Shown here: positions 3,173-19,727 of the stretch, one piece after another | How positions within the stretch are numbered: position 1 is the first letter of the stretch | Layout of the letters: each line of letters begins with the position of its first letter | Assembly (NCBI GenBank): GCA_028872015.1 | Contig: JAGWLO010000012.1 | Coordinates: 1-64,000, forward strand | Origin: Burkholderiales bacterium | Lineage (GTDB): Bacteria; Pseudomonadota; Gammaproteobacteria; Burkholderiales; Burkholderiaceae_C | Reading direction: 5' to 3' | Length of the DNA: 64,000 bases | Translations under genes and position numbers: made by a program | The notes under the pieces: model-generated | What the model saw: only the letters and a program-made list of their open reading frames with translations | Database searches by the model: none | What the model was told of the DNA's origin: nothing

Positions 3173-3235
3173 GCGCCGCACCCTGCGCGCTGTAGTTAAA
3201 TGGCGCATGTCCCTGCCGCATGCCGCCAGCGCCGG

Positions 3236-6200
3236 ATGAACGGACCCACCGCGCCCCAGGGCGAGATCGCCGCCGTTGCGGACGCCGCCGTTGCGGTCGT
3301 CGCGGCCGGCAGCGGCCGGCGCCACTACCTCACCGTCCTCTTCGCCGACCTGTCCGACTCCACCGAGATCGGCACCGATCTCGAAGCCGAGCTCTACGCC
3401 CAGCTGCTGGGCGAGGTGCGCGGCGCCATGCGCGAGATCGTGGCCCGCCACGGCGGCCGCATCGCGCGGCTGCAGGGCGACGGCGTGCTGGCCGTGTTCG
3501 GCCTGTCGGCGCCGGGCGAGGACGACGGCCGCCGCGCCTGCGAGGCCGCGCTCGACCTGCACGCGGCCGTGGCGCAGATGGCGCTGCGGCTGCCCGGGCG
3601 CGCGCCGGTGCCGCTGGCGCTGCACTCGGGCATCCACGCCGGGCTCACCTACGTGCTGGCCGGCAGCGCCGAGGTGGGCGCGATGGACCTGGTGGGCGAC
3701 GTGCCCAACGTGGCCGCGCGCCTGTCCGGCCTGGCTCGCCGCGGGGAGATCGTGGTCAGCACCCAGACCCTGGGCGCCGCGGTCCACTTCTTCGAGGCCA
3801 CGGCCCCCGAAAGCGCCAGCCTGCGCGGCCGCAGCCGCCCGCTGCCGATCTGCCGCGTGCTGCGCCGGCAGGCGATGCCGCGGCGCTTCGAGGCGCGCGC
3901 GGTGCGCGGGCTGGCGCCCTTCATCGGCCGTGCGGCCGAGACCGCCGACCTCGAGGCGGCGCTGGCCGCCGCCGCTGCCGGCCTGCCGCAATGCGCGGCC
4001 GTGATCGGCGGGCCGGGGCTGGGCAAGACGCGGCTGGTCGAGGAACTGATGCAGGCCGCGCGCGAGCGCGGCCTGACGGTGCTGCACGGCTACTGCGAAA
4101 GCTATCTCGGCGCCGAGCCGCTGCAGCCCTTCCTGCAGATCCTGCGCACCGTGATCGGGCTGGCTCCCGGCGCCCCCGCGGCCGCCGCGGCGCGGCAGGC
4201 CGAGGCGGCGCTGACGACGCAGCTCGGCCTGGGCGCCGACAGCGCCGCTGCGCTGCGGCGCGCGCTGTCGCTGCCGCTGCCGGGCGACGAGGGGCGGCGC
4301 ACCGATGGCGGCAGCACGGTGGCCGCGGTGGCGCGGATGGTCGAGCGGCTGGCCGCGGACGCGCCGGTGCTGCTGGTGCTGGACGACTGGCAATGGGCCG
4401 ACGAGCACAGCCAGCGCGTGCTCGACGGCATCCTGGCCCTGGCCGCGCCGGTCTGCGCCGTGCTGGTGACGCGGCCCGATGGCGAAGCCACCAGCCTGCT
4501 GCCGCACGCCGCCCGGCGCATCGAGCTCGCGCCGCTCGCGCTGGCGCAGACGCAGCAGGCGCTGGCGCACCTGCTGCCCGGCGCCGATCCCTTCGCGGTG
4601 GCCGAGATCCACCGCTACGCCGGCGGCGTGCCGCTGTTCATCGAGGAGCTGTGCCACTCGATGGCGGCGCCGAGGCCGCTGGGCGCGCCGGCCGACACCG
4701 CCGAGCGCGCGGCCTGGCTGGCGGCGCTGGTGGTGTCGCGGGTGGAGCGGCTGCCGGCGCCGCAGCGCCGCGTCGTGCAGGCCGCGGCCGTCATCGGCAC
4801 GCTGTTCCCGGTCTGGCTGCTCGAGCGGCTCACCGGCTGCGGCGAGGACGCGCCGGTGCTGCGCTCGCTGGCGGCCGCCGACCTGGTGTTCCCGTCGGCG
4901 CAGGCCGGGGTGCTGCGCTTCAAGCACGGCGTCACGCGCGACGTGATCTACGAGGCCGTGGGCCTGCACGAGCGCCAGGCCCTGCACCTGCAGGTGGCAC
5001 AGGCGCTGCGCGAACGCGGCGAGGACGGCAGCCAGGAAGACCTGTTCGAGGCCCTGGCCTACCAGTACGCCGCCGGTGGCCAGCCGGTGGAGGCGGCGAG
5101 ATTCGCCGAGCTGGCCGGCGACAAGGCGGCCGCGGCCTTCGCGCTCGATCGCGCGCGGGCCCAGTACGCGGCGGCGCTGCAGGCGCTGGACGCGCTGGCC
5201 CCCTTGTCGCGCGCCGACCGGCTGCGCTGGTGCCGGCTGGCCGAGAAGCTGGGACTGGCCTGCGTGTTCGATCCGCTGGCGCTGGCCGACGGCGTGAGCC
5301 TGTTCGAGCGCAGCCTGGCCCTGGCCGAGAGCACCGGCGATGCGCCTGCCGTCGCCCGCGCCCGCTACTGGCTGGGCTATCTGCACTACGCCCGCGGCCA
5401 GACGGTGGCCGCACTGGCGCATTGCCAGGCCGCGCTGGCGATGGCCGAGCAGCTGGGCGACGAGCGCCTGGCCGCCCAGGTGCGCGCCACCCTGGGCCAG
5501 GCGCTGCAGTGCGCCGCCGACTACGAGCGCGCCCTGCCGCTGATCGACGCCGCGCTCGACCTCAAGCGTGCCCGCGGCCGCCCCGGCAGCAGCATCGCCG
5601 TGGGCTCGGCCTATGCGCTGGCCTGCAAGGGCGCGATGCTGGGGGACCGCGGGCATTTCGGTGCCGCCGACGAGTGCTTCGCCCAGGCCCTGGAGCTGCT
5701 GGGTGACAGCACGCACCTGGTCGGCAGCTCGGTGCGCAACTGGGCCAGCTGCACCTGGCAATGGCAGGGCCGTTGGGCCGATGCCGAGCGCATCGCCGCC
5801 GACTCCATGCGTGTGGCCGAGCAGGGCAAGAGCCGCCAGCTGCTGGCCATGAGCCGGGCCCTGTGGGGCCATGCCCAGTGGATGGCGCAGGCCGAGCGTG
5901 GTGACGATGGCGAACCCGGTCGCGCCGACGCTGACGGGGGCCTGCAGGCGGTGCTGGACGCCACGCGCTGGATCGAAGAGCGCCGCGGCGCGCTGGTCAC
6001 CTCGCTCAACTACGGCTACCTGGTCAACGGCGCGGTGGCCGAAGGCCGGCTGGCCGATGCGCGCCGGCACGCCGCGCGGCTGTGGCAGCGGGCGCGCCAG
6101 CGCGACCGCCTGGGCGAGGCCATGGGCTGCCGCGCCCTGGCCCGGCATGCGGCTCGGCAGGGCGATTTCGCCCGTGCCGAGCGCTGGCTGGCGCAGGCCG

Positions 6201-6397
6201 CGCGCGCCGCCACCGCACGCGGCTCACCGCACGAACAGGCCGCCAACACTCTGTACCGCGCCGAAGTGCTGGCGCTGCGCGGCCCGGGCCATCGCGGGCC
6301 GGCGCAGCGCGCGCTCGACGAGGCGCAGGCCGCGTTCGAGGCGTTGGGCATGGCCTGGCACCGGCTGCAGGCCGAGGCCTTGCGCGCGCGCCTGTAG
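3236..6397 (+). CDS. Class III nucleotide cyclase domain-AAA ATPase-TPR signalling protein
   Basis: A 1053-residue cytoplasmic protein. Residues ~31-200 form a class III adenylate/guanylate cyclase homology domain: LFADLSDS with metal-binding Asp at 38, and GDG at 81-83 with the second Asp at 82. A STAND/AAA_16-like ATPase follows, with Walker A GGPGLGKT at 258-265 and a Walker B-like LLVLDDWQWAD. From about residue 600 to the end it is alanine-rich helical repeats of TPR character. This architecture is common in Burkholderiales and actinobacteria, where it is assumed to couple peptide or protein sensing to cyclic nucleotide signalling; substrate and trigger are unknown. I prefer ATG 3236 over the in-frame ATG at 3200, which overlaps an AT-rich promoter-like patch (TAGTTAAAT, 3193-3201). 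Confidence 0.85.
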   Translation: MNGPTAPQGEIAAVADAAVAVVAAGSGRRHYLTVLFADLSDSTEIGTDLEAELYAQLLGEVRGAMREIVARHGGRIARLQGDGVLAVFGLSAPGEDDGRRACEAALDLHAAVAQMALRLPGRAPVPLALHSGIHAGLTYVLAGSAEVGAMDLVGDVPNVAARLSGLARRGEIVVSTQTLGAAVHFFEATAPESASLRGRSRPLPICRVLRRQAMPRRFEARAVRGLAPFIGRAAETADLEAALAAAAAGLPQCAAVIGGPGLGKTRLVEELMQAARERGLTVLHGYCESYLGAEPLQPFLQILRTVIGLAPGAPAAAAARQAEAALTTQLGLGADSAAALRRALSLPLPGDEGRRTDGGSTVAAVARMVERLAADAPVLLVLDDWQWADEHSQRVLDGILALAAPVCAVLVTRPDGEATSLLPHAARRIELAPLALAQTQQALAHLLPGADPFAVAEIHRYAGGVPLFIEELCHSMAAPRPLGAPADTAERAAWLAALVVSRVERLPAPQRRVVQAAAVIGTLFPVWLLERLTGCGEDAPVLRSLAAADLVFPSAQAGVLRFKHGVTRDVIYEAVGLHERQALHLQVAQALRERGEDGSQEDLFEALAYQYAAGGQPVEAARFAELAGDKAAAAFALDRARAQYAAALQALDALAPLSRADRLRWCRLAEKLGLACVFDPLALADGVSLFERSLALAESTGDAPAVARARYWLGYLHYARGQTVAALAHCQAALAMAEQLGDERLAAQVRATLGQALQCAADYERALPLIDAALDLKRARGRPGSSIAVGSAYALACKGAMLGDRGHFGAADECFAQALELLGDSTHLVGSSVRNWASCTWQWQGRWADAERIAADSMRVAEQGKSRQLLAMSRALWGHAQWMAQAERGDDGEPGRADADGGLQAVLDATRWIEERRGALVTSLNYGYLVNGAVAEGRLADARRHAARLWQRARQRDRLGEAMGCRALARHAARQGDFARAERWLAQAARAATARGSPHEQAANTLYRAEVLALRGPGHRGPAQRALDEAQAAFEALGMAWHRLQAEALRARL

Positions 6398-6587: not shown

Positions 6588-6628
6588 CACGGGACGTTCG
6601 AGGACGCGTCCGTCAAAGGAGTGTTTGC

Positions 6629-6910
6629 ATGGCAACGAGAAAGAGTTCCGCCAACGCGGCACGCACCGGCAGCAAGCGGGCCGGCACGCCCACCGACGCC
6701 AGCGCCGGCGGCACCCGCGCGGCCGCCCGGGCCGACCACACGCCCAGTGCGGCCGACCTCGATCTGCGCGACCGCCTGAAGGCCGGGCCGCGACGACCGG
6801 CCGGGCCGCCGCTGGTGGGCGACATCCTCACCCGCGCCGCGATGGATGCCCTGCGCGACGAGGTCGTGCCCGAGCCCACCGATCCCAAGAACCGCCGCGC
6901 GAGGAAGTGA
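6629..6910 (+). CDS. Small basic protein of unknown function
   Basis: A 93-residue protein starting at ATG 6629, 7 bp after an AAAGGAG-type ribosome-binding site; this decides the start over the in-frame ATG at 6551. The first 50 residues are low-complexity, rich in Ala, Arg, Ser and Thr. The second half (LVGDILTRAAMDALRDEVVP) looks like a short amphipathic helix followed by a charged tail. I do not recognise a family and see no signal peptide or membrane segment. It ends 2 bp before the next ATG, so it is almost certainly co-translated with the beta-propeller-like gene downstream. The function may depend on that partner. Confidence 0.6.
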   Translation: MATRKSSANAARTGSKRAGTPTDASAGGTRAAARADHTPSAADLDLRDRLKAGPRRPAGPPLVGDILTRAAMDALRDEVVPEPTDPKNRRARK

Positions 6911-6912
6911 CC

Positions 6913-8121
6913 ATGGCCCTCACCCTGCTTCAGAACATCGGGCTCGGCGATGCCGCCACCAGCCAGACCACGTCCTCGGTCTGCGAGCCCACGGCCGCGG
7001 CCAACGAGCGCCAGCTCTTCATGACGGGCAACTGGTTCGCCAGCAGCTCGGCCGACGGCGGCGCCAGCTGGAACTTCGTCAACCCCTTCAACCGCTTCCC
7101 GGCCAGTGCCGGCGGCTTCTGCTGCGACCAGGTGGTGCTCTACAACGCGCGCCACCGCATCTGGATCTGGCTGCTGCAGTACTCGCAGGGCAGCAACGGC
7201 GAGAACCTGTTCCGGCTGGCGATCTCGCGCGAGGCCAGCTTCGGCAGCTGGTACTACTGGGACTTCACGCCGCGTGGTGTCAGCAGCACTTGGGCGGGCA
7301 ACTGGTTCGACTACCCCGACATGGCCTGCACCGACGCCCACCTCGGCGTCAGCTTCAACATGTTCAAGGGCAACGCCTGGCAGCGGGCGGCGGTGTTCCG
7401 CTTTCCACTGGCCACGCTGGCCGCCGGCACCTCGCTCGGCTATCGATCGTGGGCCACCACCGGCAACGGCTCGATCCGCCTGTGCCGAGGCCCCGGAGCC
7501 ACCCTGTTCATGGGCAGCCACAACAGCGCCAGCCAGATCCGGGTGCTGCGATGGCCCGACAGCAGCACCGGCATCAGCTGGAGCGACGTGAACGTGCGCT
7601 CGTGGTCGGGCGGCGCCTACGCCGCCCCCGGACCGGGCGGCGTCAACTGGCTGGGGCGGCTCGACCCACGCATCACCGGGGCCTGGGTCGGGGCCGGCAC
7701 CCTGGGCTTCATGTGGTCGGCCAATCGCGACGGCAGCCACCCGCTGCCGTACATCCGGGTCGCGCGCATCCGGCAGTCGGGCTTCACGCTGCTCGACGAG
7801 CCCGACATCTGGAGCCGCACCTCGGCCTGGGCCTACCCCGCGGCGGCGGCCAACGCGGCGGGCGCGGTAGGTTTCAGCGCCTTCTACGGGGGTGGCGCGC
7901 GCCACCCCGGGCATGTGGTGGGCGTGAAGTCGGCCACCGGCTGGGATACCACGCTCACCAGCACCAGCACCCACAGCCCGCCCGACCAGGCCTGGGGCGA
8001 TTACCTGTCATGCACGCCGCACAACGCCAGCAGCGCGCAGTGGGTGGCCTCGGGCTACACGCTGCGGGGCGGCACCGCGCGACGCAACATCGAACCTCGC
8101 TACGTCCGCTTCCGTGCCTGA
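6913..8121 (+). CDS. Unknown protein, probable beta-propeller (sialidase/BNR-like repeats)
   Basis: A 402-residue protein rich in Trp, Gly, Ser and Asn, with recurring short strands. Its N-terminal part reads like a sialidase-type blade (SSADGGASWNFVNPF, compare the Asp-box S-x-D-x-G-x-x-W). Further Trp-containing blade-like segments recur through the length (for example SSTGISWSDV). I see no signal peptide of standard form, although export cannot be excluded. Catalytic residues of sialidases are not evident, so this is more likely a binding or structural propeller. It sits 2 bp after the 6629 gene and 13 bp before a small membrane protein, and shares strand with the DyP-P450 fusion 0.4 kb downstream. 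Confidence 0.6.
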   Translation: MALTLLQNIGLGDAATSQTTSSVCEPTAAANERQLFMTGNWFASSSADGGASWNFVNPFNRFPASAGGFCCDQVVLYNARHRIWIWLLQYSQGSNGENLFRLAISREASFGSWYYWDFTPRGVSSTWAGNWFDYPDMACTDAHLGVSFNMFKGNAWQRAAVFRFPLATLAAGTSLGYRSWATTGNGSIRLCRGPGATLFMGSHNSASQIRVLRWPDSSTGISWSDVNVRSWSGGAYAAPGPGGVNWLGRLDPRITGAWVGAGTLGFMWSANRDGSHPLPYIRVARIRQSGFTLLDEPDIWSRTSAWAYPAAAANAAGAVGFSAFYGGGARHPGHVVGVKSATGWDTTLTSTSTHSPPDQAWGDYLSCTPHNASSAQWVASGYTLRGGTARRNIEPRYVRFRA

Positions 8122-8548: not shown

Positions 8549-11500
8549 ATGCGCAGGGAACTCATCACCAAGTCCAGAAGCCTGGTCGGCACCAGCGACC
8601 TCACCCTGCTGGCGCCGATCACGACGGGACTGGTGCCGGCGCTCGAATCCATCAGCCACAAGTCGCGCATCAAGACGCTGCTGCAGGCGCTGAACACCGG
8701 GCGCAGCACGGCGCACGAGTACGCGCTGCTGCGGCCGTTCTCGGACGCGGTCGAGCGCGTGGGCAAGATCCACTCGGTGCGGGTGGCGGTGCTCGAGCCC
8801 GCCAACCAGGTGCTGCTGGCCGTCACCTTCGATGGCAGCTGGGAGTCGTACCTGCGCGTGCTGTGGCAGAAGGTGGGCACGCTGCTGGACATCATCTTCT
8901 ACGACACCGAAGGCTACGTCTGCGCCTACGACCGCGGCTACGACGAATGGGCCGCCTGGGTGCGCCGGGTGCAGGTGGAGACGCACTTCTTCTACGGCAC
9001 GCCGGCGCTCACCGTGGGCGACGTGCCGCTGCTGCAGGCCGAGGAGCGGCAGCGCCGCAGCTGCCCCTACCGGCCCGGCAACGAGGTGGCCGCGGCGCGG
9101 CGCCACCAGGCCAGTGCCGAGACGCTGGCCTGGCAGCAGGTGACGGCCTCGCCCGCCACCGGCACCGAGACCTTCAAGCAGGGGCTGGAAGCGATGGCCG
9201 CGCTGTACCGGCTGACCGCCCTCTACCAGCCCGGCACCGACGACGGCCAGGTGCTGCTGCGCGCAGTGCGCGACCTGCTGCTCGAGTTCGTGCTGCTGCT
9301 GGAGTCGGGGGCCGTGCCGCCGGCCGCCATGGACGAGGCCCGCCAGCGCTTCGACAAGCAGCTGGTCTGGCTGCAACAGCGGCCCACCGCGCCGCGCGAG
9401 CGCCAGCGCGTGGCCCCGCCGCTGCCGCCCGGGCCGCCGGCCTTCGATGCCGCCGACGTGCAGGCCGGCATCCTGAGCGCGCACGACGGCGTGACCGACG
9501 GCGCGCTGCTGCTGCTGGCGATCGAGGACCGCGTCCGGGCCCAGCCCTTCCTGCACCGCATGGTCGACGCCGTGCGCAAGCACAGCGACCCGCCGGCCAC
9601 GGCCGACGACACGCTGGTGAACGTGGGCTTCAGCTACGAGGGCCTGCGTGCCGCCGGCCTGACCGAGGACGAGCTGGCGCTCTTTCCGCAGGAGTTCCGC
9701 GAAGGCATGGCTGCCCGCGCCAGCCTGCTCGGCGACCACCGGCTGAACCACCCGCGGCGCTGGCGCCTGCCGCCGCGGCGCGGCGCCCATGCCGGGGCCG
9801 ACGGCCAGGTGCCGGCGGTCGAATGGTCGGCCGTGCACCTGGTGCTGCAGCTGCGCTGGGTGGCGCCGCCGAGCGACGACTGGTGCGAGATCGAAGACCC
9901 CCGGCACCCGCTGCATGGCCGCTACAAAGTCTGGGCCGATGCGGCCGAAGGCCACGGCGTGGCGGTGCTGGCGGTGCAGACGCTGCACCGCTACCACCGG
10001 GCCGCCCCCACCGATCCGGCGCCCGGCCCGGCGCCGGCGCTGCAGGTCGAAGAGCACTTCGGCTTCGCCGACGGCAACAGCGACCCCGTGCTCGACCCCG
10101 CCGAGGCCGGCCGCGTCTACCCCAACCGCATCCAGCTCGGCGAGCTGCTGGTGGGCGCCGCCAACGAGGCCGACTGGCCGCTCGACCCCGAGCGCCGCCC
10201 CGACCCCGCGCTCGAGCGCCAGCGCCTGGCGTGGCTGGGCAACGGCAGCTTCCTGGTGCTGCGCAAGCTGGTGCAGAACCGCGCGCGGCTGGACCAGCTG
10301 GTGGCCGATGCGGCCGCCGCCACCGGGCTGGCGCCCGCGCTGCTGCGGGCCAAGCTGATGGGCCGCTGGGACGACGGCACGCCGCTGGTGGGCAGCGGCG
10401 GCCCGGGTGCGGCGCACAACGATTTCGACTACCGCGACGACCCCGACGGCGCGCGGTGCCCCTTCCATGCCCACATCCGCCGCGTCAACCCGCGCCCGCC
10501 GCCGGGCCTGCACGAGCCGGCCGGCCGGCGCACGCCGCGCATCGCGCGCCGCGGCATGTCGTACGGGCCGCGCTACGGCGCCGGCCGGGCCGATGCGCAG
10601 GCCGAGCGCGGCCTCGTCTTCATGGCCTACAACGCCAGCCTGGCCGAGCAGTTCGAAGTGCTGCAGGGCTGGCTGACCGGCGGCAACAGCAGCGGCGCCG
10701 GCTCCGACCCCAGCGATCCCTTCCTGGGCGTGCCCGTCAACGGCCGCCGCCGCGAGTACCGCTTCGAGGTGCCCGGCAGCGACGGCCTGCCCCGGGTCGT
10801 GAGCCTGGCGCTGGACGGCAGCGACGCCTGGCTCGGCGACCCCGATCCGATCGTGCGCCTGGCCTGGGGCGGCTACCTCTTCGCCCCGTCGATGAGCGCG
10901 CTGCGGCGCCTGTGCGATCGCGCCGCGCGCGCTGCGCCGCCGCCCGAGCCGGCGTGGTCGGTGGCCGAGGGCGCGCGGCTCATCGCGGCGCTGCACGACG
11001 CGCAGGCCGCGCACGGCCCCGAGGCGGCGGCCCAGGCCTGGAAGGTGGCGCTCGAAGACCCGGTGGAGCAGCAGAAATTCCGCGCCGCCTCGATCTGGGC
11101 CGCCATCCGCGAGCAGCATGCCGGCGCGCTGCGCACGCCCTACGGCCTGCTGGTGGCCGAGCGCGGCCTGGCGCTGCAGGTGCTGGGCGACGCCGCGCGG
11201 TTCTCGGTGCGCGGCTACCACGCGCGGCTGGCACAGTCGATCGGCGACATCTACCTCGGGCAGGACCCCGATGCGCGCTACGACGCGGTGGCCACCGTGG
11301 TCAACAAGGCCATCGGCGACATCTCGCGCGAGCGGGCCTGCGCGCTCACGCGCCAGATCACCGCCGAGCGCCTCGGCGCCTTCATCGCCGACGCGCGCCG
11401 CCACCCCAACCCGTCGCAGCCGGCGCAATGGGAGCTGATGCTCGAGATCCGCGAACTGATCGAGCCCGTGCTGGGCCGGCTGTGCCAATGGTGGTTCGGC

Positions 11501-12343
11501 ATGCCCGCGCAGGACACGCCCGACGTCCAGCTCTCGGGCCGGCGCTGGGATGCCGACGGCCGGACCGCGTACTACCCGGGCCACTTCACCGCGCCTTCGC
11601 GCTACGTGTTCCAGCCGCTGCCGGGGGCGCAGGCGCAGGCCCTGGGCCGCGACGACGGCCAGGTGCTGACGGCGGCCTTCACGCGCTTCGTGCGCGACCG
11701 CTGCGATCACGGCGGCTGGCCCCTGCCGGCGCCCGACGGCAGCCCGGCGCCGGTGGCGCGGGCCCTCTGGGACGCGTTCGGGGGCCCGCACGCCGACCCG
11801 GCCTTCATCGCCCGCACCCTGGTCGGCGCGATGATGGGCCTGCTGCCCACGCTCGACGGCAACCTGTCGCGCGTGCTCGACCAGTGGCTGGACGAAGGCA
11901 CGCTGTGGTCGCTGCGCGCGCAGTGGCTGGCGCTCGCCCCGGGCGAGCGCAGCGACGCCGCCGCCACGCGGCTGCTGCTGCCGCCGCTGCGCCAGGCGAT
12001 GCAGCTGCGCCCGGTGCCCGAGCTGGTGTGGCGCACCGCCACCGCGGCCTCGACCCTCGGGCCGCTGGTGGTGCAGCCGGGCGAGCGGGTGATCGTGGCC
12101 ATCGTCTCCGCATCGCAGCAGGCGCTGATCGACGGCGACCCCGACCTGGCGCTCAACTTCGGGGGCGACCGCAGCCAGCCCGGGCACCCGCCGCACGCCT
12201 GCCCGGGCCAGGAGGCGGCGATGGGCGTGCTGCTGGGCTTCATCGCCGGCCTGCTGGACACGCCGGGCGCGATGCGCGCCAGCCCGGTGCCGCTGGCGCT
12301 GACCTTCGAGGGGTCGTACCGCGCGCCGACGGCGGCAGCTTAG
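8549..12343 (+). CDS. DyP-type peroxidase fused to a cytochrome P450-like domain
   Basis: A 1264-residue protein with at least three parts. Residues 1-~300 form an N-terminal domain of ferredoxin-like look (VTFDGSWESY, LLDIIFYDTEGY) that I cannot name. Residues ~303-782 are a DyP-type heme peroxidase: start motif DVQAGIL, GFADG with catalytic Asp near 508 (505-509), CPFHAHIRR at 637-645 with the His expected to ligate heme, an ERGLVFMAYNAS block, and the closing WGGYLFAPS. Residues ~830-1264 resemble P450: YGLLVAERG...FSVRGYHARL, and a heme-thiolate loop FGG...HPPHACPG with Cys at 1218. The P450 half is atypical: the I-helix (A/G)GxxT is not seen and the K-helix ExxR is only approximate. No signal peptide. 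Preferred start is ATG 8549 with GGGAGGGCGG upstream. Function would be an oxidative reaction on an unknown substrate. Confidence 0.8.
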   Translation: MRRELITKSRSLVGTSDLTLLAPITTGLVPALESISHKSRIKTLLQALNTGRSTAHEYALLRPFSDAVERVGKIHSVRVAVLEPANQVLLAVTFDGSWESYLRVLWQKVGTLLDIIFYDTEGYVCAYDRGYDEWAAWVRRVQVETHFFYGTPALTVGDVPLLQAEERQRRSCPYRPGNEVAAARRHQASAETLAWQQVTASPATGTETFKQGLEAMAALYRLTALYQPGTDDGQVLLRAVRDLLLEFVLLLESGAVPPAAMDEARQRFDKQLVWLQQRPTAPRERQRVAPPLPPGPPAFDAADVQAGILSAHDGVTDGALLLLAIEDRVRAQPFLHRMVDAVRKHSDPPATADDTLVNVGFSYEGLRAAGLTEDELALFPQEFREGMAARASLLGDHRLNHPRRWRLPPRRGAHAGADGQVPAVEWSAVHLVLQLRWVAPPSDDWCEIEDPRHPLHGRYKVWADAAEGHGVAVLAVQTLHRYHRAAPTDPAPGPAPALQVEEHFGFADGNSDPVLDPAEAGRVYPNRIQLGELLVGAANEADWPLDPERRPDPALERQRLAWLGNGSFLVLRKLVQNRARLDQLVADAAAATGLAPALLRAKLMGRWDDGTPLVGSGGPGAAHNDFDYRDDPDGARCPFHAHIRRVNPRPPPGLHEPAGRRTPRIARRGMSYGPRYGAGRADAQAERGLVFMAYNASLAEQFEVLQGWLTGGNSSGAGSDPSDPFLGVPVNGRRREYRFEVPGSDGLPRVVSLALDGSDAWLGDPDPIVRLAWGGYLFAPSMSALRRLCDRAARAAPPPEPAWSVAEGARLIAALHDAQAAHGPEAAAQAWKVALEDPVEQQKFRAASIWAAIREQHAGALRTPYGLLVAERGLALQVLGDAARFSVRGYHARLAQSIGDIYLGQDPDARYDAVATVVNKAIGDISRERACALTRQITAERLGAFIADARRHPNPSQPAQWELMLEIRELIEPVLGRLCQWWFGMPAQDTPDVQLSGRRWDADGRTAYYPGHFTAPSRYVFQPLPGAQAQALGRDDGQVLTAAFTRFVRDRCDHGGWPLPAPDGSPAPVARALWDAFGGPHADPAFIARTLVGAMMGLLPTLDGNLSRVLDQWLDEGTLWSLRAQWLALAPGERSDAAATRLLLPPLRQAMQLRPVPELVWRTATAASTLGPLVVQPGERVIVAIVSASQQALIDGDPDLALNFGGDRSQPGHPPHACPGQEAAMGVLLGFIAGLLDTPGAMRASPVPLALTFEGSYRAPTAAA

Positions 12344-12400: not shown

Positions 12401-13786
12401 TCAGGCGTCCGGTCCGGCGCCGCCAGCGCGATCGCCGGTCGGGCCAGGCGCCGCCCTCGGAGATGCCTGCTTCGGGAAGTAGTTCCTTTGCGCCATCGCC
12501 TCGTACAGCGGCGGCGCGAACGCTGCCGAGATGCGCGAGGCGAGCAGGGCCGTGGCCATCATCGGGATGACCAGCCCGCCGCCGTCGGTCATTTCCATCA
12601 CGATGACGAAGGCGGTGAGCGGCGACTGGGTGACCGCGGCCAGATACCCGGTCATGCACAGCGCGATGAGCGCAGGCAGCTGCGCCCAGTCAAAGGCCGC
12701 ATGCACCCATTGCGCCAGGCCGGCGCCGATCGACAGCGAGGGCGAGAACAAGCCGCCCGGCATGCCCGCCATGTAGCTGACGACCAGACTGGCCCATTTG
12801 GTCACGGCGTAGCCCTGGCTCAGCGGCGCCGTGCCTTCGAGCAGATGGCGCGCCTGGTCGTAGCCGCTGCCCCAGGTTTCGCCTTCGGTGGCCACGCCCA
12901 GCGCGGCGACGGTCAGTCCGACCACCATCGCGTAGACCATGGGTTTGCGGGAGCGCCAGGCCTGCAGCCGCGCAGGCATCCAGCTGTCCCAGTGCAGCAG
13001 GGCCCCATTGAAGGCGGCCCCGAGCAGCCCGCACAGCAGTGCGCTGACCACCACCGGCAGCACGAAGGCGATACCGATGTGCTGCGGCACGCCCATCTGG
13101 CCGAAGTACAGGTAGTTGCCCGCCAGCGCGAGCGAGGTCAGGCCGGCGAACACCACCGCGGTGATCATGGTGCCGTTGGTTCGGCTCTCGAAATCGCGGG
13201 CCAACTCCTCGATGGCGAAGATGATGCCGGCCAGCGGCGTATTGAATGCCGCCGACAGGCCCGCCGCGGCACCGGCCAGCAGCAATTGGCGCTCCAGCCT
13301 GGGCCCCGCATGCGGGTAGAAGCGTCGCGTCTCGGCCATGATCGCAGCGCCCAGGTGCACCGTGGGCCCTTCGCGGCCGACGCTCATGCCGCCCAGGAAG
13401 CCGAGCAGCGAGACGAACAGCTTGCCCAGGATGACGCGCGGGCCGAACAAGCGTTTCATCAGGGTTTCGTCGCGCGGCGCGTGCAAGGCGGCGATCACCT
13501 GCGGGATCCCGCTGCCCTCGCTGCCGGAGAACCAGCGCCGCGTCAGGGCCACGCCCAGCATCGTCAGGGCCGGGGTGATCAGGAAGGCCAGCCAGGCGCG
13601 GCCCGCGATCCAGCCGACGAACAGCCGGGACGCCGCCGCGCTGGATTCCGCGTAGAGCACGGCCACCAGCCCCACCACCAGGGCGGCACCCCAGGGCAGC
13701 CCGAACTGCAGGAAGAGCCGGCGGCCGCGGCCCTTGGCCAGGCGCGCCCAGGCGCGCCCGCGCGTCGGATCGGTGGGCGGTGTCAT
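12401..13786 (-). CDS. ClC-family chloride channel/antiporter
   Basis: A 461-residue integral membrane protein with all ClC signature loops: GSGIPQ at 91-96, GREGP at 137-141 with the gating Glu at 139, and GGLFSP at 344-349. The EE pair at 193-194 corresponds to the internal proton-transfer Glu of E. coli ClcA, so I infer Cl-/H+ exchange rather than a passive channel. No C-terminal CBS domains, which is usual for short bacterial members. It is convergent with the DyP-P450 gene (57 bp between stops) and divergent from nothing nearby; the radical SAM gene lies 61 bp upstream on the same strand. Likely role: acid resistance or charge balance. Confidence 0.92.
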   Translation of the reverse strand: MTPPTDPTRGRAWARLAKGRGRRLFLQFGLPWGAALVVGLVAVLYAESSAAASRLFVGWIAGRAWLAFLITPALTMLGVALTRRWFSGSEGSGIPQVIAALHAPRDETLMKRLFGPRVILGKLFVSLLGFLGGMSVGREGPTVHLGAAIMAETRRFYPHAGPRLERQLLLAGAAAGLSAAFNTPLAGIIFAIEELARDFESRTNGTMITAVVFAGLTSLALAGNYLYFGQMGVPQHIGIAFVLPVVVSALLCGLLGAAFNGALLHWDSWMPARLQAWRSRKPMVYAMVVGLTVAALGVATEGETWGSGYDQARHLLEGTAPLSQGYAVTKWASLVVSYMAGMPGGLFSPSLSIGAGLAQWVHAAFDWAQLPALIALCMTGYLAAVTQSPLTAFVIVMEMTDGGGLVIPMMATALLASRISAAFAPPLYEAMAQRNYFPKQASPRAAPGPTGDRAGGAGPDA

Positions 13787-13847
13787 GGTGCCACGCCAGC
13801 GTCGTACGTCATCGCTGAATTGTGTGTCGAACCGGCCGCGGGGGCGG

Positions 13848-15782
13848 TCAACCCGGTCGCGCGGCCAGCGCGCGCTCGATGCGGCGCCGCGGCACGCCCG
13901 GCTTGGGCACCGGCAGATCGAACCAGCTGCGCACGTCCTCGTCCAGCCCGAGGCCGTGCATGTAGTTGTAGAGCGCCTTCTTCAGGCCCGGCGCCAGCGC
14001 GTCGTGGTCGCAGCCGGTGGGGTCGACGAAGCCGACGTCGTTCTTCGCGAAGCGGCCCGCCGGCAGCGGCAGCAGGCGCACGCCGTAGTCCTGCGGCTGC
14101 CGGCCCACGGGCGAGTGCACGGTGCAGGCGAAGCGGTGCCAGAAGCCCGACTGGATGCAGCCGGCGGCAAAGAGCTGGCGCACGGTCTCCAGCGCGTCCA
14201 CCGTGTCCTGCACGGTCTGGGTCGGGAAGCCGTACATCAGGTAGGCGTGCACCAGGATGCCGGCCTCGCTGAAGGCGTGCGTCACGCGCGCCACCTGCTC
14301 GACCGACACGCCCTTCTTCATCAGCGCCAGCAGCCGGTCGCCGGCCACCTCCAGCCCGCCCGAGATGGCGATGCAGCCGCTGGCCGCGAGCTCGCGGCAC
14401 AGCGCCGGCGTGTAGGTCTTCTCGAAGCGGATGTTGCCCCACCAGCTGATGGCGCTGCCGCGCCGCTGCAGCTCGGCCGCCAGCGCCTTCAGCGACTTCG
14501 GCGGCGCCGCCTCGTCGACGAAGTGGAAGCCGGTCTGCCCGGTCTCGGCCACGATGGCCTCGATGCGGTCGACCAGCGTCGCCGCCGTGGCCGCGTCGTA
14601 GCGGCCGATGTAGTCCAGGCTCACGTCGCAGAAGCTGCATTGCTTCCAGTAGCAGCCGTGGGCCACGGTGAGCTTGTTCCAGCGCCCGTCGCTCCACAGC
14701 CGGTGCATCGGGTTGAGCAGGTCCAGCAGGGAGAGATAGCGCCCCAGCGGCAGGCCGTCCCAGGTGGGCGTGCCCACGTCCTCGAACGGCACGTCGGGCT
14801 CGACGAAGTTGGTGTAGATCACGGCCTGCGACGCGGCGTCGCGCGTGTACGTGCGCACCAGCCGCCGCGCCGAGCGCCGGCCCTGCAGGTGCTCGGTCAG
14901 GGCCAGCAGCGGCCGCTCGCCGGCGTCCAGCGTGACGTAATCGAAGTAGTCGAACACGCGCGGCTCGGCCAGCTCGCGCAGCTCGGTGTTGACCCAGCCG
15001 CCGCCGAGCACGGTGACGATCCCGGGCCAGGCCGCCTTGATGGTCTGCGCGATGCGGAAGGCCGCGTACACCGCGCCCGGGAACGGCACCGACACCAGCA
15101 CCAACGTGGGCTGGTGGCGAGAGATCGCGTCGCGCGTGAGCGCGGCCAGGGTGCGGTCGATCAGGTTGGCGGGCGCCGCCAGCGCCGCGGCCAGCGGATC
15201 GAAGTGCGGCTGACTCTGTGCCAGGCTCTCGGCGTAGCGCACGAACTCGAAGCGCGGGTCGACGGCATCGCGCAGCACGTCGGCGATGTCGTTCAGGTAC
15301 AGCGTGGCCAGGTGGCGCGCGCGGTCCTGCACGCCCAGGGCGCCGAAGGCCCAGGCCAGCGCATCGCCCGTGCCGCCCTCGGGGTCGACGTACACCGCCA
15401 GCGCCGCGAAGCGCGGGCCCTCGGGCAGGAAGGCGCGGCCGGCGATGCGGTGCGCCAGCGTCGGGTCGCGGCCCTGCAGGAAGGCCAGCGTCGGCGCGAT
15501 GGTGGCGCGGTAGCGCTCGAAGTGCCGTTCGAACGCCGCCACGCGCGGCGTGCGCGCCGCCGCCGGCAGCGCCGCGATGGCGTCGCGCACCGACGCCAGC
15601 CCGGCCGGCGAGAGCAGCTCGAGGATCAGCGCCAGCGCCAGGTCTTCCTGCCCCGCCGCGATGCCGCGCGAGCGCAGGAAGCCCGTCAGGTAGGCGGTGG
15701 ACGGGTAGGGCGTGTTCAGCTGCGTCATCGGCGGGATGAGCGAGAGCACGCGCAGCGGCGCGGCGACTTCGGTGGCGGGCAT
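13848..15782 (-). CDS. B12-binding domain radical SAM protein
   Basis: A 644-residue protein. The N-terminal half resembles a cobalamin-binding domain of the B12-radical SAM class (VLSLIPPMTQLNTPYPS at the start; VTVLGGGWVNTEL later). The radical SAM core carries a cysteine cluster at 377, 382 and 385 (CYWKQCSFC, a CX4CX2C spacing seen in this subgroup) followed by GGLEVA and YGFPTQT motifs. Members ligate a 4Fe-4S cluster and AdoMet; the substrate of this subgroup is not known to me. Start ATG 15782; an in-frame ATG at 15809 adds nine residues and is possible. It diverges from the patatin-like gene, 99 bp apart, so the two may be co-regulated. Confidence 0.85.
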   Translation of the reverse strand: MPATEVAAPLRVLSLIPPMTQLNTPYPSTAYLTGFLRSRGIAAGQEDLALALILELLSPAGLASVRDAIAALPAAARTPRVAAFERHFERYRATIAPTLAFLQGRDPTLAHRIAGRAFLPEGPRFAALAVYVDPEGGTGDALAWAFGALGVQDRARHLATLYLNDIADVLRDAVDPRFEFVRYAESLAQSQPHFDPLAAALAAPANLIDRTLAALTRDAISRHQPTLVLVSVPFPGAVYAAFRIAQTIKAAWPGIVTVLGGGWVNTELRELAEPRVFDYFDYVTLDAGERPLLALTEHLQGRRSARRLVRTYTRDAASQAVIYTNFVEPDVPFEDVGTPTWDGLPLGRYLSLLDLLNPMHRLWSDGRWNKLTVAHGCYWKQCSFCDVSLDYIGRYDAATAATLVDRIEAIVAETGQTGFHFVDEAAPPKSLKALAAELQRRGSAISWWGNIRFEKTYTPALCRELAASGCIAISGGLEVAGDRLLALMKKGVSVEQVARVTHAFSEAGILVHAYLMYGFPTQTVQDTVDALETVRQLFAAGCIQSGFWHRFACTVHSPVGRQPQDYGVRLLPLPAGRFAKNDVGFVDPTGCDHDALAPGLKKALYNYMHGLGLDEDVRSWFDLPVPKPGVPRRRIERALAARPG

Positions 15783-15881
15783 GGCCCGGGCATTGTCACC
15801 GCGGGTCATCAGCCGGGCCGGCCGACTTGGGGACTGTGCCGAGGCGTCGCCCGGACGCCGTCGGTTACATTGGCGCCCGCC

Positions 15882-17750
15882 ATGCGACAGCCGTACCAGG
15901 ACGAACTGCTCGAGCAACACCTGCGTGCGGTCCTGGGCGACCTGCCGGCCGAAGTGTTGGACCCGCTGCGTCGGGAACTGAGCTGGGTCGAGCTCGCCGG
16001 CGGCGAGACGCTGATGACGCAGGGCGAGCCCGGCGACTGCCTGTTCCTGTCCATCAGCGGCCGCCTGCGCGCCTATGTGCGCGACGACGAGGGCCAGGAG
16101 CGCGCGGTGCGCGAGATGGCGCGTGGCGAGGTCATCGGCGAGATGGCCCTGTTCACCGACGAGCCGCGCTCGGCCACCGTGGTGGCGATCCGCGACTCGG
16201 TGCTGGTGCGGCTGAGCAAGGCCGCCTTCGAGCGCCTGCTGGGCGCCAGCGCGCAGGCGTCCATCGCGCTCACGCGGCGCGTCATCCAGCGCCTGCAGAA
16301 GCCGCAGTCGGCGGCCGACTTCGCGCGCCCGGTCACGCTGGCGCTGCTGCCGATCACGCCCGGCATCGACGTGCCGGCCCTCGCGCAGGCGCTGGCCGGG
16401 CAATTGCGCCGCCTGCCCGGCGCCAGCCGGGTGTGCGTGGTCGACGCCGCCGGCGTCGAGGCCGCGCTGCAGGCCAGCGCCGACAGCGAGCTCGACGCCG
16501 AGCGCCGCATCGCGCTGTACCTGGACCGCATCGAGGCCACGCACGAGTTCGTGCTGCTGGTGGGCGACGAGCAGCCCACGCCCTGGACCCGCCGCTGCTG
16601 CCGCCGCAGCGACGAGATGCTGCTGCTGGCCGATGCCGACCAGCCCGCCGTGCTGCACGCCACCGAGACCGAGGTGCTGATGCCGCGGCCCGGCCGCAGC
16701 GAGGCGGCCGAGATCCTGGTGCTGCTGCACCCGGCCGGTCGGCGCTGCCCGCAGGGCACGCGGGCCTGGCTCGATCGCCGGCCGCTGACCGACCACGTGC
16801 ACATCCGCCCGGCCCTGGAGCGCGATCTGGCCCGGCTGGCGCGCCTGCAAAGCCGCAACGCGATCGGCCTGGTGCTGGCCGGCGGCGGCGCGCGCGGGCT
16901 GTCGCACCTGGGCCTGCTGCAGGCGCTGCACGCGCAGGGCATCGAGATCGACTGCGTGGGTGGCACCAGCATCGGCGCGGTGATGGCAGCGCTGATCGCG
17001 TCCGACCAGCCGCCCGAGACCGTGATCCCGATCGCGCGCAAGGCCTTCATCCGCAACCCCACGGGCGACTTCAACCCGGTGCCGCTGCTGTCGCTGATCC
17101 GCGGCCGGCGCCTGAAGCGCGTGATCGACACCGCCACGCGCGAGCTCTTCGGCACGCTGCCCGACATCGAAGACCTGTGGAAGACCTGCTACTGCGTGGC
17201 CAGCAACTACTCGCAGGCGCACGAGGCGGTGCTGCGCCGCGGCAGCCTGTCGTGGGCGCTGACCGCGAGCACCGCGATCCCGGGTGCGCTGCCGCCGGTG
17301 CTGCACGCCGGCGAGCTGCTTTGCGACGGTGGCACCTTCAACAACTTCCCCGTCGACGTGATGCGTGCGCAGCGCGGCGTGGGCCGCGTCATCGGCGCCG
17401 ACCTGAGCTACCGCAAGCTGCGCCGCATCGAGCTCGACGAAGTGCCCTCGTCCTGGGCGCTGCTGCTCGACCGCCTGCGCCCGCGCCGGTACCGGCGCTA
17501 CAAGCTGCCCTCGCTGGTGGCCTACCTGATGAACGTGAGCGTGCTGTACAGCGCCTCGCGCCAGCGCCACGCGCGCGCCCTGGCCGACCTGTACTTCAAC
17601 CCCCACCTGCCCAGGGTGGGCATGCTGCAGTGGCGCCGCTTCGACCACATCGTGCAGCAGGGCCGCACGCACGGGCAGGAGGTGCTGGCCGCGCTCAGCC
17701 CGCAGGCGCTGGGCCTGTACCGCGACGTGCGCGCGCCGGCCGAAGGCTGA
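15882..17750 (+). CDS. Patatin-like phospholipase with cyclic nucleotide-binding domain (NTE/RssA-like)
   Basis: A 622-residue protein. Residues ~15-135 are a cNMP-binding domain (GEPGDCLFLSISGRL and a GEVIGEMALFTDEPRSATV cassette). A Rossmann-like middle section follows, as in neuropathy-target-esterase homologues. The patatin domain has GGGARG at 334-339 (oxyanion hole), GTSIG at 361-365 with nucleophile Ser363, and a DGG triplet with catalytic Asp482. It should hydrolyse phospho- or lysophospholipids, possibly gated by cyclic nucleotide; a class III cyclase is encoded 9 kb away. The CoA-transferase-GNAT gene begins 15 bp downstream on the same strand, suggesting co-transcription. Confidence 0.9.
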   Translation: MRQPYQDELLEQHLRAVLGDLPAEVLDPLRRELSWVELAGGETLMTQGEPGDCLFLSISGRLRAYVRDDEGQERAVREMARGEVIGEMALFTDEPRSATVVAIRDSVLVRLSKAAFERLLGASAQASIALTRRVIQRLQKPQSAADFARPVTLALLPITPGIDVPALAQALAGQLRRLPGASRVCVVDAAGVEAALQASADSELDAERRIALYLDRIEATHEFVLLVGDEQPTPWTRRCCRRSDEMLLLADADQPAVLHATETEVLMPRPGRSEAAEILVLLHPAGRRCPQGTRAWLDRRPLTDHVHIRPALERDLARLARLQSRNAIGLVLAGGGARGLSHLGLLQALHAQGIEIDCVGGTSIGAVMAALIASDQPPETVIPIARKAFIRNPTGDFNPVPLLSLIRGRRLKRVIDTATRELFGTLPDIEDLWKTCYCVASNYSQAHEAVLRRGSLSWALTASTAIPGALPPVLHAGELLCDGGTFNNFPVDVMRAQRGVGRVIGADLSYRKLRRIELDEVPSSWALLLDRLRPRRYRRYKLPSLVAYLMNVSVLYSASRQRHARALADLYFNPHLPRVGMLQWRRFDHIVQQGRTHGQEVLAALSPQALGLYRDVRAPAEG

Positions 17751-17765: not shown

Positions 17766-19727
17766 ATGGCCGACGCGCCCGCCCCGAATCCGCTGCTCCA
17801 TCCGCTGCTGCAGCCGCATGCCCACAAGGTGGCCAGCGCCGCCGAGGCGGTGCGCGCGGTGCGGCCGGGCGACCACGTGTTCGTGGGCACGGCCTGCGCC
17901 ACGCCGCGCGCGCTGGTGGCCGCCCTGGAGGCCTGGGAGTTCGGCCCTGCCGACGTCGAGCTGCTGCACTTCCTGACCGACCATGCCGTGCCGCACGATG
18001 CCCAGGGCCGGGCGACGACGCGGCTGCGCCACCGCTGCTTCTTCGTCGGTGCCGACATGCGCGCCGCGGTGCGCCAGGGGCTGGCCGAATACGTGCCGCT
18101 GTCGATCGCGCGCGTGCCGGGGCTGATCGCGCTCGGCCGCATCCCGGTCGACGTCGCGTTCATCCAGGTCTCGCTGCCCGACGCCTTCGGCTACGTCAGC
18201 CTGGGCGTGTCGGTGGACGTGATCCCGGCCGCGGTGGCGCGGGCGCGGGTGGTGATCGCCGAGGTCAACCCCCGCATGCCGCACGCCATGGGCGACAGCC
18301 TGCTGCATGTGAGCCGTATTGACCGCCTGGTGCCGGTGGACACGCCCGTGATCGAGTACGCGCACCCGCCCACCACCGAGGCGGCCATGGAGCAGATCGC
18401 GCGCTACATCGGCGGCATCATCGAGGACGGCTCGACGCTGCAGATCGGCCTCGGTCGGGTCGCCAACGAGGCGCTGAAGTACCTGGCCGACCGGCACGAC
18501 CTGGGCATCCACTCCGACGTCGTCACCGACGCCATCCTGCCGCTGCTGGCGCGCGGCATCGTCACCGGCCGGCGCAAAACGCAGCAGCCGCACAAGATCG
18601 TGGCCAGCTTCGCGATGGGCAGCCGCGCGCTGTACGACCTGATCGACGGCAACCCGCTGTTCGACTTCCAGCCCATCGAGCAGGTGTGCGACGCCGCCAC
18701 GCTGGCGGCACAGCACCAGCTGGTGTCGGTGACGCAGGCCTTCGCCATCGACCTCAGCGGCCAGGTCTGCGTCGACCAGGAAGGCGGCGGCTTCTACGGC
18801 GGCCTGGCCGCCCAGGTCGAGTTCCACGCCGCCGCGGCGCGCTCGCCCGGGGGCAAGGCCATCATCTGCCTGGCCTCCACCGAGACGGCCACCGAGACCG
18901 CCACCGAGCCGGGCGAAGCCGGCCGGCCGCGCTCGCGCATCCGGGCCCAGCTCGGGCCGGGCGAGGGCGTGGCCGTGCCGCGCAGCGAGGTGCACTACGT
19001 CATCACCGAGTACGGCATCGCCTACCTCTTCGGCAAATCGGTGCGCGAGCGCGCGCTGGCGCTGATCGGCATCGCCCACCCGCAGCACCGCGCGGCGCTG
19101 CTGGCGCAGGCGCAGGCACTGGGCTGGGTGCCGGCGTCGCAGACGCTGAAGAACCTGCACGCCTACCCGGTGCACGAGGAGCAGGCCGCGACGCTGAAGG
19201 ACGGCCGCGCCCTGCTGCTGCGGCCCGCCACCGCGAGCGACGGCGAAGGCATCCGGGCGCTGTTCCACGGCCTGTCCGAGCGCGACATCTACACCCGCTT
19301 CTTCCGCAAGCTGCGCGGCCTGTCCGACCGCGACGTGCAGCGGCTGTGCAACGTGGATTTCGACAACGAGGTGGCCTTCGTGGCCGCTGCCGGCACGCGC
19401 GAGAACCCGCGCATCGTGGGCCACGCGTTCTACTTCGTCGATCCTTCCACCAATCTGGCCGAGACCGCCTTCATGGTCCACCCCGAGTGGCGCGGCTCGG
19501 GCCTGGGCGGCCTGCTGCAGCGCCGCCTGGCCGCGCATGCCCGCGGCCGCGGCGTGCGCGGCTTCGTGGCCGAGCTGCTGGCCAGCAACGAGCACATGCT
19601 GCACCTGGCGCGCGGTGGGCCCGCCGGCGGCGAGGACGGCGGCACCGTGCAGATCGAGGACCAGGGCGGCACGCTGCGCGTGACGCGGCTGTTCGGCGAC
19701 GGCCCGCGCAGCGAGCTGGGGGAGTGA
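17766..19727 (+). CDS. Acetyl-CoA hydrolase/transferase fused to a GNAT acetyltransferase domain
   Basis: A 653-residue fusion. Residues 1-~470 are an acetyl-CoA hydrolase/4-hydroxybutyrate CoA-transferase-type module (VNPRMPHAMGDS, LQIGLGRVANE, GLHSD-like GIHSDVV, CVDQEGGGFYGG, TEYGIAYLFGKS). Residues ~475-640 are a GNAT domain with HPEWRGSGLGGLL as the acetyl-CoA-binding motif A and an FFRKLRGLSDRD segment similar to Pat-type protein acetyltransferases. The fusion could use or control the acyl-CoA pool, but whether both domains are active is unknown. The stretch encoding ETATETATE near residue 380 is a small internal repeat. It is followed by a strong hairpin at 19729-19758. Confidence 0.85.
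   Translation: MADAPAPNPLLHPLLQPHAHKVASAAEAVRAVRPGDHVFVGTACATPRALVAALEAWEFGPADVELLHFLTDHAVPHDAQGRATTRLRHRCFFVGADMRAAVRQGLAEYVPLSIARVPGLIALGRIPVDVAFIQVSLPDAFGYVSLGVSVDVIPAAVARARVVIAEVNPRMPHAMGDSLLHVSRIDRLVPVDTPVIEYAHPPTTEAAMEQIARYIGGIIEDGSTLQIGLGRVANEALKYLADRHDLGIHSDVVTDAILPLLARGIVTGRRKTQQPHKIVASFAMGSRALYDLIDGNPLFDFQPIEQVCDAATLAAQHQLVSVTQAFAIDLSGQVCVDQEGGGFYGGLAAQVEFHAAAARSPGGKAIICLASTETATETATEPGEAGRPRSRIRAQLGPGEGVAVPRSEVHYVITEYGIAYLFGKSVRERALALIGIAHPQHRAALLAQAQALGWVPASQTLKNLHAYPVHEEQAATLKDGRALLLRPATASDGEGIRALFHGLSERDIYTRFFRKLRGLSDRDVQRLCNVDFDNEVAFVAAAGTRENPRIVGHAFYFVDPSTNLAETAFMVHPEWRGSGLGGLLQRRLAAHARGRGVRGFVAELLASNEHMLHLARGGPAGGEDGGTVQIEDQGGTLRVTRLFGDGPRSELGE

Follow-up and report, generated by a model that had tools for sequence, protein, structure and literature searches.

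A bacterial gene that joins a DyP peroxidase to a divergent cytochrome P450 and is linked to a nucleotidyl cyclase gene

Some cytochromes P450, CYP152 among them, operate without a reductase. Fusions of a peroxidase to a P450 are known from fungal oxylipin synthesis. In these dioxygenase-P450 (DOX-CYP) enzymes the peroxidase half belongs to the cyclooxygenase superfamily, according to one report (PMC4420034). Another (PMC13049297) presents the fungal fusions as reductase-free and as keeping an HxC motif; in some of them the residue at the distal heme position is nonpolar, as it is in TXS and 8S/9S-AOS. The gene considered here joins a P450 to a peroxidase of a different superfamily, a DyP. A literature search of titles and abstract openings, with most subscription journals outside its scope, found no description of a DyP-P450 fusion.

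The gene lies in the window, the whole 64,000-nucleotide stretch of a Burkholderiales contig that was analysed (Table 1). A preliminary description had claimed a single 1264-residue frame carrying two different heme-enzyme domains. The frame is open through all 1264 codons (the longest ATG frame over the gene starts at 8501), and the pairing is supported by the retained DyP residues and the C-terminal P450 fold described below. Seven relatives cover the whole query at 47-85% identity, one of them (L010) with a broken frame, and the N-DyP-P450 fusion is present in 34 of the 399 genomes sampled from the window's family; G705 and G746 were left out of 36 family matches as short (frames of 389 and 419 aa, that of G746 matching Pfam p450). 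Thus, a frameshift that joins two genes, which the preliminary description had named as a way its reading could fail, is unlikely, and because the fusion recurs in the family it is no assembly artefact. Read from its translation, one bacterial gene joins two unrelated heme-enzyme domains in the three-part architecture N-DyP-P450, and each of these two domains would be expected to bind heme.

Table 1. Features of the fusion gene and its neighbours in the window
Feature	Position	Strand	Evidence
Class III nucleotidyl cyclase-AAA_16-TPR protein, 1065 aa	3200..6397	+	Pfam; near fusion in 31/31 loci
Fusion gene, N domain-DyP peroxidase-P450, 1264 aa	8549..12343	+	Open frame; 7 spanning relatives; ATG behind ggcgggagggcggc
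N domain, residues 1-289 (conserved core ~58-180)	8549..9415	+	Separate genes and profile matches elsewhere
DyP peroxidase domain, ~residues 303-782	9455..10894	+	Pfam, TIGR01413, PDB profile, alignment
Asp508 of GFADG	10070..10072	+	D in 36/37 N-DyP-P450 relatives (1 E), 8/8 P450-X-N-DyP, 13/13 other DyPs
His642 of CPFHAHIRR	10472..10474	+	H in 37/37 N-DyP-P450, 8/8 P450-X-N-DyP, 13/13 other DyPs
Arg667	10547..10549	+	R in 37/37 N-DyP-P450, 8/8 P450-X-N-DyP, 13/13 other DyPs
Divergent P450 domain, residues 786-1264	10904..12340	+	hhalign, AF2, Foldseek, tree
I-helix motif MGLLPTL, residues 1096-1102, Gxx-Pro replacing AGx[DE]T	11834..11854	+	G1097 38/38, P1100 36/38
K-helix ExxR place, residues 1149-1152 (QAMQ), motif lost	11993..12004	+	E with R in 0/38 N-DyP-P450 rows
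Cys1218, expected heme-thiolate ligand	12200..12202	+	C 38/38, HAC 38/38; aligned to P450 cysteine by hhalign
NTE-like ORF, cNMP-binding and patatin phospholipase domains, possible accessory, provisional start	13734..17750	+	Pfam

Against PDB 8re3 the DyP part scores E 3.6e-31, and its His642 aligns with both that chain and 4g2c. The part also passes Pfam Dyp_perox_C (20.9 bits, cut-off 20); TIGR01413 gave 72.2 bits, below its cut-off of 100.5, though with an E value of 4.4e-20. Both motifs reported earlier, GFADG and CPFHAHIRR, are in the translation. We take Asp508 to be the distal Asp of the usual DyP scheme, His642 the proximal His and Arg667 the distal Arg. All the residues that mark DyP membership (the GxxDG Asp, the proximal His and the distal Arg) are present in the fusion and kept across its relatives. 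In the first 300 residues, Pfam recognized no family. Separate genes at L002 and L003 match fusion residues 58-250, and an N-domain profile finds matches at both fused and split loci; the N domain is a third recurring part beside DyP and P450. Kinship of the N domain with DyP or P450 is unsupported (0.1-0.4% by hhalign).

Single-sequence searches with the C-terminal half were negative or marginal: Pfam p450 (PF00067) matched none of eight scanned halves from N-DyP-P450 fusions, its sole match in the own genome was another, ordinary P450, NCBIfam and Pfam gave no specific family, and the PDB profile search was marginal (best E 0.13; 7 of 9 rows P450s). Profile comparison was therefore used instead. 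By hhalign the half matches 28 P450 rows not from DyP loci over 340 columns (98.7%, E 2.9e-16); the comparisons overall reached 98.7-99.1% and the control pairs at most 0.7%. The best 50 of 1362 Foldseek matches to the model of this half were all P450s, and in the cysteine loop FGG and HAC are identical across all 38 aligned fused halves, window included. These comparisons and the model indicate that the half is a divergent P450, in agreement with the P450-like half and Cys1218 loop proposed earlier. Among domain models, Dyp_perox_C matched and Pfam p450 did not, so a missing P450 match, taken beforehand as a sign against the proposal, was seen in single-sequence Pfam searches and not with hhalign, Foldseek or the tree. 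Structure prediction returned a P450 fold (AF2 pLDDT 72.4, pTM 0.70) but modelled the Cys1218 loop poorly (pLDDT <50), and the N and DyP parts together likewise (pLDDT 48.9).

The preliminary description was also right that a clear AGxxT and an exact ExxR are missing. AGx[DE]T, the motif expected of O2-activating monooxygenases, is absent from the I-helix of the fused P450s and present as AGx[DE]T[TS] in 23 of 28 comparison P450s. The reversed fusions described below carry GFxPT there (8/8) and the split-partner P450s Gxx-P (5/5; three GxxPT, two GGPPQ); the proline presumably resembles that of CYP152. PF00067 is passed by two reversed fusions (L160 and L162) and by L120 and L121, with L159 below the cut-off. 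A tree sets the partner P450s of all three arrangements (both fusion orders and split) apart from 31 others (support 99/97); its rows were 27 of the 38 N-DyP-P450 halves, seven of the eight reversed (L166 out), five split, three other and 28 comparison P450s whose neighbours were unscreened for DyP genes. Together these define a P450 branch marked by Gxx-Pro in the I-helix and, in some of its members, by the loss of ExxR. They also bear on whether the half is a conventional O2-dependent monooxygenase served by outside redox partners and joined to DyP by chance, an explanation we consider very improbable. On plasmid pMPPM03 of Methylorubrum, ferredoxin and FAD-oxidoreductase genes do accompany a P450 gene, and catalase, N and DyP genes follow downstream. 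However, the I-helix of the pMPPM03 P450 reads AGHETT, the ordinary form, and this P450 falls outside the partner branch, the fused P450s are without AGx[DE]T, and the annotated stretches of fusion loci L001, L159, L160 and L162 contain no ferredoxin gene.

Beyond what was described before, the parts recur fused in either order and, unfused, in split operons. The reverse order, P450-X-N-DyP, is found at eight loci in other Proteobacteria, three of them named Alphaproteobacteria; elsewhere in this phylum N, DyP and P450 are encoded by separate adjacent genes. Because the two domain orders are opposite, the DyP-P450 pair was probably fused in separate events, and such convergence would be evidence for an advantage in passing a peroxide product inside a single chain, from the peroxidase on to the P450. 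In a class survey with a P450 profile, only the own genome was found among 369 (up to four candidates scored per genome). Among 20 matches listed of 81 plasmid records, one (Sphingopyxis) covers DyP and the P450 half. Viral contigs gave no match to the six peptide patterns used. The N domain, the reverse order, the split operons and the cyclase were absent from the preliminary description because it had no relatives at hand.

A linked neighbour is the cyclase-AAA-TPR gene, which encodes a class III cyclase protein that we take to be sAC-like. Neighbours in other fusion hosts were compared, as suggested earlier: the gene is found no more than 6 kb from the fusion in every one of 31 loci inspected (the window, L001, L005-L008, L010, L065-L084 and L116-L119, leaving out L009, with the same matches as L065, and L004, an 85% relative), at L117 as a 358-aa piece only. 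In the family survey its profile was found in 34/34 fusion genomes and 6/365 others, and it is single copy in its own genome. A TPR protein is encoded directly upstream of all eight reversed fusions, with a cyclase domain recognized in five; at split loci L120, L161, L173 and L174 the queries used found no cyclase. The linkage itself is seen in gene order, and the role in signalling that it may reflect could take several forms. One is a heme-based sensor, in which peroxide, O2, NO or a lipid would bind to the two heme domains and these would regulate the cyclase through protein contact, the P450 being no longer an enzyme. The cyclase linkage, TPR domains that fit protein contacts, and the loss of ExxR (0/38) and of the I-helix motif would suit it. 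However, the catalytic residues of the DyP persist throughout, and the reversed (8/8) and split (5/5) partners retain ExxR, a pattern that suggests selection for catalysis; we regard a sensor as quite improbable.

Other neighbours are less regular. Among the loci tested, only L004 has a full-length relative of the NTE-like ORF, and a patatin/NTE protein as constant partner was rejected. At L070, L073, L082 and L116 a patatin-like gene lies directly upstream, its match narrowly missing the cut-off at L070 and exceeding it at the other three. Crp and LuxR genes flank some loci, and catalase-like genes adjoin N and DyP genes at L002, L003, L169, L170, L171 and L172. These catalase-like genes, the Crp-type regulators and the conserved DyP catalytic residues could speak for peroxide defence or xenobiotic oxidation, in which DyP and P450 would consume H2O2 or organic peroxides in acting on a variety of substrates, with no part for the cyclase and Crp genes beyond control of expression. 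Such a role is unlikely: generic detoxification leaves a fusion in two opposite orders unexplained, as well as a cyclase-TPR gene near 31/31 loci where a plain regulator would suffice.

The explanation we favour, tentatively and at somewhat less than an even chance, is a two-heme, peroxide-driven enzyme tied to cyclic-nucleotide signalling. The N-DyP part would make or activate a peroxide intermediate, which the fused P450 would use without a reductase, in peroxygenase or hydroperoxide-isomerase chemistry; it has lost the residues with which P450s normally activate O2 using electrons supplied by redox partners. The cyclase-AAA-TPR protein would then read either the product, for which an oxidised lipid is the likeliest candidate, or the enzyme's redox state, and relay the signal to cyclic-nucleotide-binding proteins. 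The lipid is proposed because phospholipase genes flank a minority of loci. Counted in favour are the P450 homology, the kept DyP residues, the Gxx-Pro I-helix, the tree branch, the opposite order, the cyclase linkage, the upstream TPR proteins and patatin-like genes, and the fungal DOX-CYP analogue. Counted against are the poor models of N plus DyP and of the Cys1218 loop, the small share of loci with the phospholipase genes that prompt the lipid idea, the six genomes with cyclase and without fusion, the split loci where no cyclase was found, three DyP-operon P450s (L002, L124 and L125) outside the partner branch, of which that of L002 adjoins ferredoxin and reductase genes, and the many DyPs without any P450. 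A bolder form, which seems rather unlikely, would be a bacterial parallel to the eicosanoid and psi-factor cascades, assembled from unrelated components: a phospholipase would release a lipid, the peroxidase-P450, fused at least two times and in opposite orders, would make the mediator from it, and a soluble-type cyclase encoded close by would turn this signal into a cyclic nucleotide. The fusion and its cyclase hint at oxidation-linked signalling of an unstudied kind. They offer a concrete candidate for a bacterial pathway that signals oxidised lipids or peroxide via cyclic nucleotides, and cultured hosts for testing it include Variovorax and Novosphingobium.

Comparison with Pycsar rejects membership of that defence system. 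PADLOC PycC matches the 1065-aa protein (E 1.4e-15) over its cyclase domain only, the fusion protein has no PADLOC match, and the matched PycC models span 226-449 positions, whereas here the protein has 1065 aa and is encoded near an oxidase fusion. The NTE-like ORF has a PycTIR match over its cNMP domain and weak matches to phospholipase effectors; it is no constant neighbour, and the Pycsar arrangement, in which a small cyclase adjoins one of the listed cNMP-gated effectors, was not found. The C/D-type DyPs 4g2c (DyP2) and 8re3 share the Asp, His and Arg motif residues (E 1.8e-26 to 3.6e-31), but their chains have 445-493 residues, whereas here the DyP lies inside a chain of 1264. Like the reductase-free P450s CYP74, CYP5A1/CYP8A1 and CYP152, the P450 half does not keep the I-helix acid-alcohol pair; unlike them, it matches no specific family, and the N-DyP-P450 fusions are without ExxR. 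The fungal DOX-CYP enzymes (linoleate diol synthases, PpoA type) also place a peroxidase-type heme domain before a C-terminal P450 in one chain. They share the HxC cysteine loop and atypical distal residues, and the known ones have no reductase (PMC13049297). The bacterial protein differs in its DyP, its extra N domain, its linked cyclase and its reversed relatives, and membership of the fungal family is ruled out because the peroxidase half is a DyP and not of the cyclooxygenase superfamily. By analogy, the best reading is that the fusion works like the fungal DOX-CYP enzymes without belonging to them.

The preliminary description had presented the fusion as a single 1264-residue frame. That frame is real and encodes an N domain, a DyP peroxidase and a divergent P450, in this order (N-DyP-P450); its ATG at 8549 is preceded by a purine-rich stretch. 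Artefactual joining of two genes by a frameshift was also considered. A related-locus search with the fusion returned 10 loci, 7 of which span the query, one (L004) at 85% identity and the six others at 47-51%; the frame is broken in one of the seven (L010). A C-terminal profile matched 36 of 399 genomes drawn from the window's family; two matches, short and in other P450-sized frames, were excluded, leaving 34 fusion genomes with open frames of 1042-2010 codons, two of which (G524 and G767) carry one stop each inside the profile match. Given the 7 spanning relatives and these 34 genomes, the fusion is not an artefact. In a draw of 369 genomes from the class, the profile matched only the window's own genome, and a phylum draw (n=299) added one N-DyP-P450 fusion, in another class (G954, locus L163).

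Features of the window and of two related loci
Sequence	Coordinates	Strand	Feature
Window	3200-6397		class III cyclase-AAA_16-TPR gene
Window	6625-8121	+	frame of 498 aa, located between the cyclase gene and the fusion gene; 85% identity in L004
Window	8549-12343	+	N-DyP-P450 fusion
Window	17766-19727	+	acetyl-CoA hydrolase/transferase domains and GNAT acetyltransferase domain in one frame
L001 (Sphingopyxis sp. DBS4 plasmid pDB-1)	6941-12391		fusion beginning only in the DyP domain, right after a Tn3 transposase gene
L128	1205-5541		P450-like region, then N-type domain, within a single frame, followed by an overlapping DyP frame

Among solved structures, DyPs match the DyP region (8re3, E 3.6e-31), and the GFADG and CPFHAHIRR motifs claimed for it are present. 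Asp508, His642 and Arg667, in the usual DyP scheme the distal Asp, proximal His and distal Arg, line up with the motif positions in 8re3 and 4g2c. The His and Arg are conserved in 37/37 N-DyP-P450 relatives, 8/8 fusions of reversed order (P450-X-N-DyP) and 13/13 other DyPs; the Asp is equally constant except in one N-DyP-P450 relative, which has Glu (36/37, against 8/8 and 13/13 in the other two groups).

The P450 assignment of the C-terminal half was not borne out by single-sequence searches, but emerges clearly from profile-profile comparison and Foldseek. Pfam and NCBIfam searches of this half named no P450, Pfam found none in the C-terminal halves of 8 fusion members scanned, the sole match of an own-genome Pfam p450 search was another gene, and a PDB profile search was marginal. 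Profile-profile comparison with P450 gave 98.9% (99.1% with cleaned rows) and, against 28 P450 rows not from DyP loci, 98.7% (E 2.9e-16, 340 columns); control pairs gave <=0.7%. With an AF2 model (pLDDT 72.4, pTM 0.70), Foldseek returned 1362 matches, 1022 at E<=1e-3, the best 50 of the 1362 all being P450; the cysteine (model residue 433) sits in a stretch of pLDDT <50.

This P450 had been said to lack the usual I-helix motif and an exact ExxR, and both absences recur among its N-DyP-P450 relatives. At the aligned place ExxR occurs in 0/38 N-DyP-P450 rows, 8/8 reversed fusions and 5/5 partner P450s encoded by separate adjacent (split) genes. In the I-helix, the N-DyP-P450 rows keep Gxx-Pro in place of AGx[DE]T (G1097 in 38/38, P1100 in 36/38); reversed fusions have GFxPT (8/8), split partners GxxPT (3/5) or GGPPQ (2/5), and comparison P450s AGx[DE]T[TS] (23/28), with the GxxPT string also in 1/28. 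According to PMC13049297, the Thr of the acid-alcohol pair has been proposed to deliver protons for O2 cleavage. Its loss suggests that the enzyme may use peroxide rather than O2 plus electrons.

The three domains also occur in other arrangements. Reversed fusions were found in Novosphingobium aromaticivorans (WP_011907039), Pararhizobium qamdonense (WP_276121424) and Sulfitobacter (WP_152553137), and in five further genomes that share the phylum but not the class (L164-L168). The Pfam models p450 and Dyp_perox_C each score above cut-off in two (L160, L162), and p450 falls just under it in L159. In L159, L160, L162 and L164-L168, X comprises ~300-400 residues; Pfam scans of three of these proteins gave it no match. 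At L161, L173 and L174, N, DyP and P450 are encoded by separate genes lying together; L120 and L121 have split sets related to these. L128 represents a third arrangement, with an overlapping DyP frame downstream and a cyclase relative upstream. A plasmid search retrieved the Sphingopyxis pDB-1 fusion with its 5' end cut off, as if a transposon had removed the 5' half, and, in Methylorubrum and Paracoccus, adjacent N and DyP genes next to a catalase-like gene. Such a gene, an alternative heme partner, takes the P450's place beside N and DyP at L002, L003 and L169-L172. A Pfam search of the L002 and L003 N proteins and of whole reversed fusions showed no other family.

In an unrooted 70-row tree (27/38 N-DyP-P450, 7/8 reversed, 5 split, 3 other operon and 28 comparison P450s), the 39 partner P450s were set apart from the remaining 31 at 99/97 support, forming one branch. 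N-DyP-P450 rows group together (100/100), as do reversed rows (92/79), with which the split-gene P450s cluster. Long-branch effects are possible, given that the tree lacks a root and has a long branch (1.81) for the N-DyP-P450 rows. P450s near DyP in L002, L124 and L125 fall outside the partner branch.

The cyclase gene is found no more than 6 kb from the fusion at 31/31 loci. At 23 of the 31 it is convergent, its stop <=~125 bases from that of the fusion; the window has it 2.2 kb upstream, both genes being read in the same direction. Both genes share a contig, within ~6 kb, in 33/34 fusion genomes (different contigs in G839). The cyclase profile matches 40/399 family genomes, including all 34 with the fusion (Fisher 1.8e-43, a value that ignores kinship and assumes the same 399 genomes in both draws). 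The own genome has a single copy, and no DyP or P450 lies near the cyclase in the six cyclase-only genomes (one contig being only 3.5 kb). A related TPR protein stands immediately upstream of 8/8 reversed fusions, its cyclase domain recognized in 5, and cyclase relatives adjoin split or DyP sets at L121, L124, L125 and L128; none was detected with the queries used at L120, L161, L173 or L174.

Among other neighbors, Crp-type genes appear in the annotation of L001 and L160; Pfam confirms the Crp type at L068 and LuxR-type genes at L068, L070 and L119. Frames matching patatin sit directly upstream, scoring over the cut-off at L073, L082 and L116 and just under it at L070 (26.6 bits versus 27.7); downstream of the window's fusion is an NTE-like cNMP-patatin ORF with a whole-length relative, among loci tested, in L004 only. 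The 498-aa frame has no Pfam, NCBIfam or PADLOC match and was not found at the loci tested other than L004. A different frame family (~420-490 aa) adjoins the cyclase at six loci (L077-L080, L083, L119); its L077 member, the one scanned, has no Pfam match.

The fusion is best read as a two-heme enzyme, driven by peroxide and with a tie to cyclic-nucleotide signalling; its lipid substrate and signalling role are inferred, and detoxification or heme sensing are possible, less favored alternatives. In its way of working such an enzyme would resemble the fungal dioxygenase-CYP fusions (linoleate diol synthases), but it is not a member of that family, because its peroxidase half belongs to another superfamily.
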